Source: Pseudomonas tohonis
GTDB taxonomy: Bacteria > Pseudomonadota > Gammaproteobacteria > Pseudomonadales > Pseudomonadaceae
DNA: 64,000 nucleotides
Direction: 5' to 3'
NCBI RefSeq assembly: GCF_012767755.2
Contig: NZ_AP023189.1
Coordinates: forward strand, 4,590,001-4,654,000
A model generated the notes under the pieces. It worked only from the letters and a program-made list of their open reading frames with translations. It was not told the origin of the DNA and did not search any database. Positions 21,801 to 22,053 of the stretch are shown here, piece after piece; within the stretch, counting starts at the first letter, position 1, and every line of letters begins with the position of its first letter. Position numbers and translations under genes: made by a program.

Positions 21801-21924
21801 TTAGTTACAAACTAGCCCCCAAACGAGTTCTGTCAAGCGAGAGGGAGGGAAGAGCGACGGATAGTGGGGCTTACGGACAATGCCTACGGGTTTATAGGCT
21901 TTACAAAAAGTTCGTTGTTTATAC
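21801..21924. other. Right end of the genomic island
   Basis: AT-richer sequence between the recombinase module and the ttcA fragment. Recognisable ttcA coding sequence ends at 21925, so 21924 is the last base that can belong to the island. CCTTGCC at 21924-21930 is on the ttcA side and may be part of the recombination core. The matching left end is not in the window. Confidence 0.65.
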
Positions 21925-22053
21925 CTTGCCGCCGGACAGGCAGACCATGACCTTGTCGCCGTCCTCGATCATGTTGAAGTCGGCGATGGCTTCGCCGGCG
22001 AGGCGACGGATGCGTTTCTGCAGTTTGTTCTGGTTGACCGAAAGGGTGCCCAT
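21919..22053 (-). pseudogene. ttcA: ttcA, 5' fragment interrupted inside the PP-loop
   Basis: tRNA 2-thiocytidine synthetase TtcA thiolates C32 of tRNAs using a PP-loop ATPase and an iron-sulphur cluster. From the ATG at 22053 the frame gives QNKLQKRIRRLAGEAIADFN and then VMVCLSGGK, the first four residues of the SGGKDS ATP-binding motif. The next codons are Val and a stop at 21919-21921. About 230 residues, including the rest of the PP-loop and the cysteine motifs, are missing. Insertion of the adjacent island explains this. In Pseudomonas ttcA is normally a complete gene. Confidence 0.9.

Follow-up and report, generated by a model that had tools for sequence, protein, structure and literature searches.

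How can a mobile element enter its host through the catalytic codons of a conserved housekeeping gene? The question is raised by a 64,000-nucleotide stretch of the Pseudomonas tohonis chromosome (the window; positions 4590001-4654000 of a 6,826,062-bp genome assembled as a single contig, G000:C1), in which the tRNA-thiolation gene ttcA is interrupted within the codons of its PP-loop. We conclude, with a probability of roughly 0.8, that a 28-kb, likely mobile island of the GInt type splits the host ttcA in these codons and carries a divergent ttcA that likely replaces C32 thiolation. The observations that bear on this are the split and its direct repeat, the recombinase (gin) module at one island end, an intact TtcA at a nearly fixed distance from the other, the recurrence of the arrangement, and purifying selection on the island gene. 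From the sequences we infer that the Gin proteins perform the recombination and that the island TtcA substitutes for the host enzyme. Coordinates are collected in the table below.

The 5' part of the host ttcA encodes 44 amino acids, starting with the ATG at 22053 and ending ...MVCLSGGK, followed by GTA TAA; the last host codon before the island ends at 21925. A PF01171 search of the whole genome led to three places: besides TilS, these are a complete TtcA and a 233-amino acid TtcA fragment, both at about 4583.2-4584.9 kb, some 5-7 kb to the left of the window (region L005). The fragment is the missing 3' half of the host gene, an open frame that starts GKDSYTMLDV straight after CTATAA; the junction reads ...GCTATAA followed by GGCAAGGACAGCTACACC (GKDSYT...). 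The two halves are separated by 28.05 kb within one complete genome. A 7-bp direct repeat, GGCAAGG, is present at both ends (the far copy at G000:C1:4583866-4583872), and the insert measures 28,051 bp (G000:C1:4583873-4611923). Rejoined, the halves are in frame, and the encoded protein shares 99% identity with the uninterrupted TtcA of a congeneric relative. The far island end does not restore the frame, as an in-frame TAA stands ahead of GKDSY.

A sequence-only reading of the window had ttcA run normally from 22053 to SGGK and then give way to island DNA, which the 44-codon frame and its GTA TAA ending confirm; it had set the boundary at 21924, with a direct repeat of 21922-21932 to be expected, and was right to within 1-2 bases. 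The recombinase module that it placed at the ttcA junction is indeed there, as ginABCD, and the rest of the gene, to be sought leftwards, lies beyond the window, with the repeat at the island end. The comparison with uninterrupted ttcA that it proposed supports a real insertion, as the gene is intact in 15 of the 18 genomes searched within the genus. That the junction is an assembly artefact or a mis-join has a negligible probability: the genome is a single contig, a like junction occurs in 16 distinct assemblies and on plasmids, and the mis-join is refuted by this recurrence. Since the same cut is found in 16 distinct assemblies and 15 of 18 genomes of the genus are intact, it is neither chance nor an assembly break.

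These assemblies were identified by GinA, at E<=1e-60, among 398 genomes of the Pseudomonadaceae and 378 of the largest genus. GinA was detected in 12 and 5 of these, respectively, the latter adding four, for 16 distinct genomes (G847 and G399 are apparently one assembly and were counted once). In all 16, including P. tohonis itself, a 5' remnant of ttcA is present and breaks off after SGGK, at the same codons. Fourteen also retain the 3' half of the host gene together with an intact island copy of TtcA, and no further intact TtcA was found in them; the two adjoin each other except in G338, where the island TtcA is on a separate contig. The other 13 island TtcA proteins are 68-99% identical to the P. 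tohonis copy. At least three TtcA matches occur in exactly 10 of the 398 genomes, all with GinA (Fisher p 2.7e-18, which assumes independent genomes; they are not). Eight loci include those of Stutzerimonas kunmingensis, S. stutzeri, P. rubra, P. mangrovi, P. otitidis, P. alcaligenes and two metagenome-assembled genomes (MAGs). In a class-level sample beyond the family, GinA was found in the P. tohonis genome only (1 of 369 at E<=1e-35). A protein database gave six pairs of GinA and island-type TtcA relatives apparently of common source, including Halothiobacillus and an uncultured Deefgea, drawn from subsets of 51 and 48 among the 120 + 120 matches listed of 297 and 7463; they suggest that the gin-ttcA pair travels beyond the Pseudomonadaceae. 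Separately, G246 has two full-length TtcA matches of equal score and identity (contigs C5 and C15) and no GinA match, perhaps through contamination (5%) or duplication.

The island TtcA lies about 165 bp inside the far island end and is the only intact TtcA found in the P. tohonis genome. It scores 439 bits against the NCBIfam TtcA equivalog (cut-off 272) and shares 66% identity with the 3' half of the host gene. The SGGKDS PP-loop and both cysteine motifs (C-X-X-C and the second Cys pair) are intact in all 16 island copies, from 14 genomes and two plasmids, and the distance from the stop codon to the TATAA of the attachment (att) end is 161-172 bp in every one. The median ratio of nonsynonymous to synonymous substitution rates (dN/dS), computed from the 65 pairs (of 120) whose dS falls within 0.05-1.5, is 0.043 (range 0.028-0.086), indicating purifying selection. 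In the available portions of one report, P. aeruginosa TtcA is important under oxidative stress, a PAO1 ttcA deletion is peroxide-sensitive, and four TtcA cysteines are needed for function (PMC6082896). The sequence-only reading had expected C32 thiolation to be abolished unless the frame was restored or the element excised. The frame is not restored, yet the genome has a separate, complete island TtcA of predicted function; because the island brings its own intact TtcA, the break probably leaves C32 thiolation in place.

A gene so placed might also be passive cargo, for example captured once beside an ancestral insertion and kept by linkage to the att end. It does adjoin the att site, where neighbouring DNA would be easily captured, and the ends are exchangeable: compared with the P. 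tohonis island, G242 has a TtcA that is 98-99% identical but a GinA of only 70-71%, and island ends are for this reason judged to be sometimes exchanged between islands. We nevertheless consider passive carriage unlikely, given the dN/dS of 0.043 and the integrity of all 16 copies. Of the 26 ORFs (open reading frames of >=90 amino acids) in the P. tohonis island, ginA, ginB, ginC, ginD and ttcA are the only ones to recur in each of the eight other islands compared, so that no other non-gin ORF is common to them, and five chromosomal islands of that comparison span about 26 to 106 kb. The comparison omits about 4.8 kb of plasmid pPA942 and 200 bp of G242, and the pPA942 GinA and GinB match only partly (61 and 40% of length). 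Distances of the Gin proteins correlate with those of TtcA (Mantel r 0.86 for GinA, 0.72 for GinB, 0.92 for GinC and 0.94 for GinD; 0.69, 0.48, 0.82 and 0.94 without G168, GinB being weakest). A tree built on 156 sequences, starting at the PP-loop, unites 27 host TtcA proteins (11 split, 16 intact) in a single clade (support 0.998), whereas 10 of 11 island TtcA proteins fall in another clade with database proteins and the eleventh, from G168, in a third. Because it lies outside the host clade, the island ttcA is, by its tree position, not a duplicate from Pseudomonadaceae hosts, and hence was not captured from them.

Another view is that the island TtcA serves the island, for example in the decoding of its AT-richer genes or in an oxidative-stress response, with replacement of the host enzyme as a side effect. 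The gin and ttcA genes are AT-richer than the host DNA (GC 0.43-0.47 over 16001-22000 of the window and 0.42-0.45 for the island ttcA, versus 0.64-0.67 for 22001-26000). By itself this view does not explain why an island that cuts ttcA should also carry one, and we regard it as distinctly unlikely.

The insertion might instead merely turn TtcA off, as in regulated gene integrity, and be reversed by excision. Elements of such a kind exist (PMC10111431, in the portions available), and the two host halves have stayed open and can be rejoined in frame in each of 13 genomes checked, so that precise excision would restore the gene; the open 3' halves fit a recent or a reversible insertion. G338, with its fragmentary contigs, was omitted from this flank join, and a right-anchored identity of 0.08 in G992 is ascribed to a one-residue C-terminal offset (234 vs 233 amino acids), not to divergence. 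Wherever both host halves were found, in 14 genomes, an intact second TtcA is present as well, however, and a simple switch-off is therefore very improbable.

What the island recognises is indicated by its ends. In the islands examined, attL reads SGGK and then NTAT, mostly NTATAA, attR reads CTATAA and then GGNAARGA, and a GGNAAR core is present at the att ends (chance GGNAAR matches were ignored, and false attL assignments inside gin genes of G399, G820 and G992 were replaced by the true sites). The usual 21-bp host site is a gapped inverted repeat, CTGTCC...GGACAG, and ranks among the best-conserved stretches of ttcA: in a comparison of 16 hosts, 17 of 789 windows equal or surpass it. Two P. 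aeruginosa megaplasmids, NZ_CP129201 (pPA942) and NZ_OR283034, carry a TtcA at an identity of at least 95% (98.3 and 97.0%; two of the 34 records having any match). The far att end leads into GKDSSVTLNL... on either plasmid, and on pPA942 the gin end follows ...RRLVVAWSGGK; both ends are seen on pPA942 and the far end only on NZ_OR283034. The interrupted gene has matches in 113 plasmid records, 38 of the 40 listed being annotated as phosphoadenosine phosphosulfate (PAPS) reductase family protein, and in NZ_CP040126 the stretches that flank the cut are separated by 10 bases, as expected of an empty site. A Pfam search of its downstream piece alone gave no family, and as far as seen the gene resembles ttcA only at the PP-loop. 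Since the plasmid copies sit in the SGGK/DS codons of another gene, the target of the element seems to be DNA encoding a PP-loop. Against the 21-bp ttcA consensus, the att site of the plasmid gene has 4 mismatches and the corresponding stretch of the island's own ttcA 10-11.

Together these findings suggest a scheme in which the Gin proteins would recombine the island site with conserved SGGKDS-coding DNA through a 6-bp core, here GGCAAG. A highly conserved stretch of ttcA as the site would give a wide choice of hosts at the cost of breaking a useful gene, and the carried ttcA would pay that cost by substituting for the host TtcA. With so many bases off the host site, the PP-loop codons of the island ttcA would be a poor target for the island's own recombinases. 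Precise excision would restore the host ttcA, and deletion of the island would leave the cell without any TtcA; the pair should therefore also stabilise the island. On the megaplasmids the recombinases apparently use the PP-loop codons of another gene, likely a route of cell-to-cell transfer. The wider proposal is that an island family with a five-gene core, ginABCD plus ttcA, is a natural break-and-rescue element that reads PP-loop-signature DNA and cuts suitable PP-loop genes there (ttcA on chromosomes, or a PAPS-reductase-family gene on megaplasmids that serve as a vehicle), its ttcA both repairing the damage and tying the host to the island, and that it has spread across the Pseudomonadaceae and probably to Betaproteobacteria and Halothiobacillus; we give this an even chance of being correct.

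Several observations weigh against replacement of the host function by a carried, protected gene. No sigma-70-type promoter emerged from a consensus scan of the same-strand sequence ahead of the island ttcA (L005 to 9400). The PP-loop of the island gene is not specially recoded: synonymous sites are saturated gene-wide (mean proportion of synonymous differences, pS, 0.96), and the PP-loop window, at 0.99, is equalled or exceeded by 113 of 258 windows, so the low site match of the island ttcA reflects this gene-wide saturation. Two MAGs, G210 and G234, have GinA and the 5' remnant but no island TtcA and no host 3' half, probably through missing contigs, the alternative there being a rescue-free island. 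ginA is in pieces in G008, in G338 and on pPA942, and some copies may no longer be mobile and may be decaying. NZ_OR283034 has the island TtcA without a GinA match at E<=1e-40; island TtcA and GinA can thus part. Finally, the broken PAPS-reductase-family gene of the megaplasmids is not what a carried ttcA would replace.

By anatomy, that is, gene order and ends, the nearest known kind appears to be the GInts (Bardaji et al. 2017, PMC5385486); this and the following comparisons refer to the available portions of the papers cited. Shared features are the ginABCD order at one end, a recombinase-like GinC, a small GinD, variable cargo with restriction-modification, a short AT-rich other end and a strict target. 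Short imperfect direct repeats are a further common feature: in GInts they are reported as 10-17 nt, and here an exact 7 bp is repeated, with 10-17 nt reached only with mismatches. Unlike the GInts described, the present island cuts its target in a catalytic motif and carries a whole replacement gene; the terms ttcA, PP-loop and thiocytidine are absent from the main text of that paper. A strand-biased circularizing element was considered and rejected, as its order is intA-tfp-intB-srap with the catalysis-deficient protein second (PMC10214605); here the large protein that lacks a recombinase family match occupies the third place, after two that match integrase families, as in GInts. Rac and rac-like prophages of E. 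coli also integrate into ttcA, but with intR/xisR at its 5' end and a change of four N-terminal residues upon excision or integration; TtcA is left whole, next to a remnant (PMC4632033). Islands and prophages in dusA likewise target a tRNA-modification gene whose function is thought to be preserved, though by a substitute 5' end that is joined to the host gene, and not by a complete gene elsewhere in the island (PMC4482086). Helper-embedded phage-inducible chromosomal islands share the internal cut of a gene, yet they target a prophage late gene, redundancy is called not essential and regulated excision is proposed; an attP replacement sequence is there said to be usual, exceptions being mostly understandable as regulated gene integrity (PMC10111431). 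The logic of a needed gene broken and a resistant rescue copy carried is that of engineered Cleave-and-Rescue and home-and-rescue drives (PMC7951863, PMC7968924), which are man-made gene drives with no relation of descent to the island.

Our literature search did not find whole-gene replacement as a fixed part of an element with a PP-loop codon target, and both the replacement and the targeting look new. Elements that enter genes usually leave the target unharmed or graft a substitute end onto it; a whole substitute in trans would be a third solution. It would explain how a site so useful to the host is usable, when conserved catalytic codons of a housekeeping gene are cut and the island ttcA is kept while other cargo changes, and would make the island a natural counterpart of the engineered drives. 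The scheme predicts that such recombinases can enter genes with an SGGKDS-like DNA string. For annotation, carriage of the island does not by itself make a genome a TtcA mutant, and the pair of host fragments does not form a functional gene.

Table. Features of the ttcA island and its insertion sites (window positions unless a region or contig is named).
Feature	Position	Strand	Remarks
5' remnant of host ttcA, SGGK-V-stop	21919..22053	-	from sequence; corresponds to TtcA residues 19-56; cut inside PP-loop codons
3' half of host ttcA	L005 about 7171-7872	-	outside window; partner of 5' remnant
att copy, gin end	21924..21930		GGCAAGG on ttcA strand; second copy ~6.1 kb left of window
Island part within window	1..21923		extends left to G000:C1:4583873
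Island TtcA, complete, 299 aa	L005:8040-8939	- (as ttcA)	between tail and cargo, outside window
AT-rich tail	about L005:7873-8039	same as ttcA	outside window
ginA, tyrosine recombinase, 425 aa	20523..21800	-	Pfam Phage_integrase 39.2 bits (cut-off 27.1)
ginB, second recombinase, 550 aa	18874..20526	-	NCBIfam NF041502 site-specific integrase 81.8 bits, under cut-off 350; conserved
ginC, third recombinase-fold protein, about 776 aa	16584..18923	-	
ginD, small fourth gene, ORF up to 167 aa	16172..16675	-	59-96% identical in 14 other gin modules
GIY-YIG (T5orf172/MUG113) nuclease-like cargo	14860..16068	+	only some islands have it
DEAD/ResIII helicase-like cargo	12717..14867	+	only some islands have it
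MmeI-like restriction-modification enzyme, cargo	9861..12638	+	five MmeI Pfam domains; PADLOC REase_MTase_IIG 907 bits
RmrA-like, ImmA/IrrE-type peptidase, cargo	7355..8305	+	Pfam Peptidase_M78 86.5 bits; PADLOC RmrA 352 bits
Plasmid insertion sites	L106 about 21066, L107 about 21068, L108 about 9841		SGGK/DS codons of PAPS-reductase-family gene

The gin genes are four adjacent ORFs on one strand (21800-16172), kept in 14 other gin modules; GinA has relatives in all 14, the G008 copy being in pieces only. GInt GinA and GinB have a catalytic RHRHY, and GinC is recombinase-like without the first arginine (PMC5385486, in part). Here the predicted GinC model resembles tyrosine recombinases, and GinC has no recombinase family match. 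Candidate catalytic residues, picked by eye, are invariant across the aligned islands (GinA R242, H357, R360 and Y401; GinB R380, H381 and Y411; GinC R537, H538 and Y569). A gin-like module with a GinA about 40% identical is also present on a Photobacterium toruni plasmid (L109:19941-26137). The AT-rich end opposite gin measures 174-185 bp with a GC of 0.33-0.38 in all 16 copies. A string of the type TTTTT(C)TGTAAAG lies near att at both island ends (L005:7873-8039 and window 21890-21920), a possible binding repeat for a recombinase or GinD.

Within the cargo, the helicase and GIY-YIG pair (12717-16068) is also found in G179, G242 and pPA942, beside restriction-modification genes, and could be an undescribed defence pair. 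At 7355-9250, the RmrA/IrrE-like peptidase is followed by a short ResIII-like ORF (8214-8579) and an uncharacterised ORF (8576-9250), a cluster that recurs in several islands and may be a partly decayed system. An ORF on the minus strand that runs into the window start (L005:13287-14327) encodes only the C-terminal part of a UvrA-like protein (UvrA positions 616-941 of 943).
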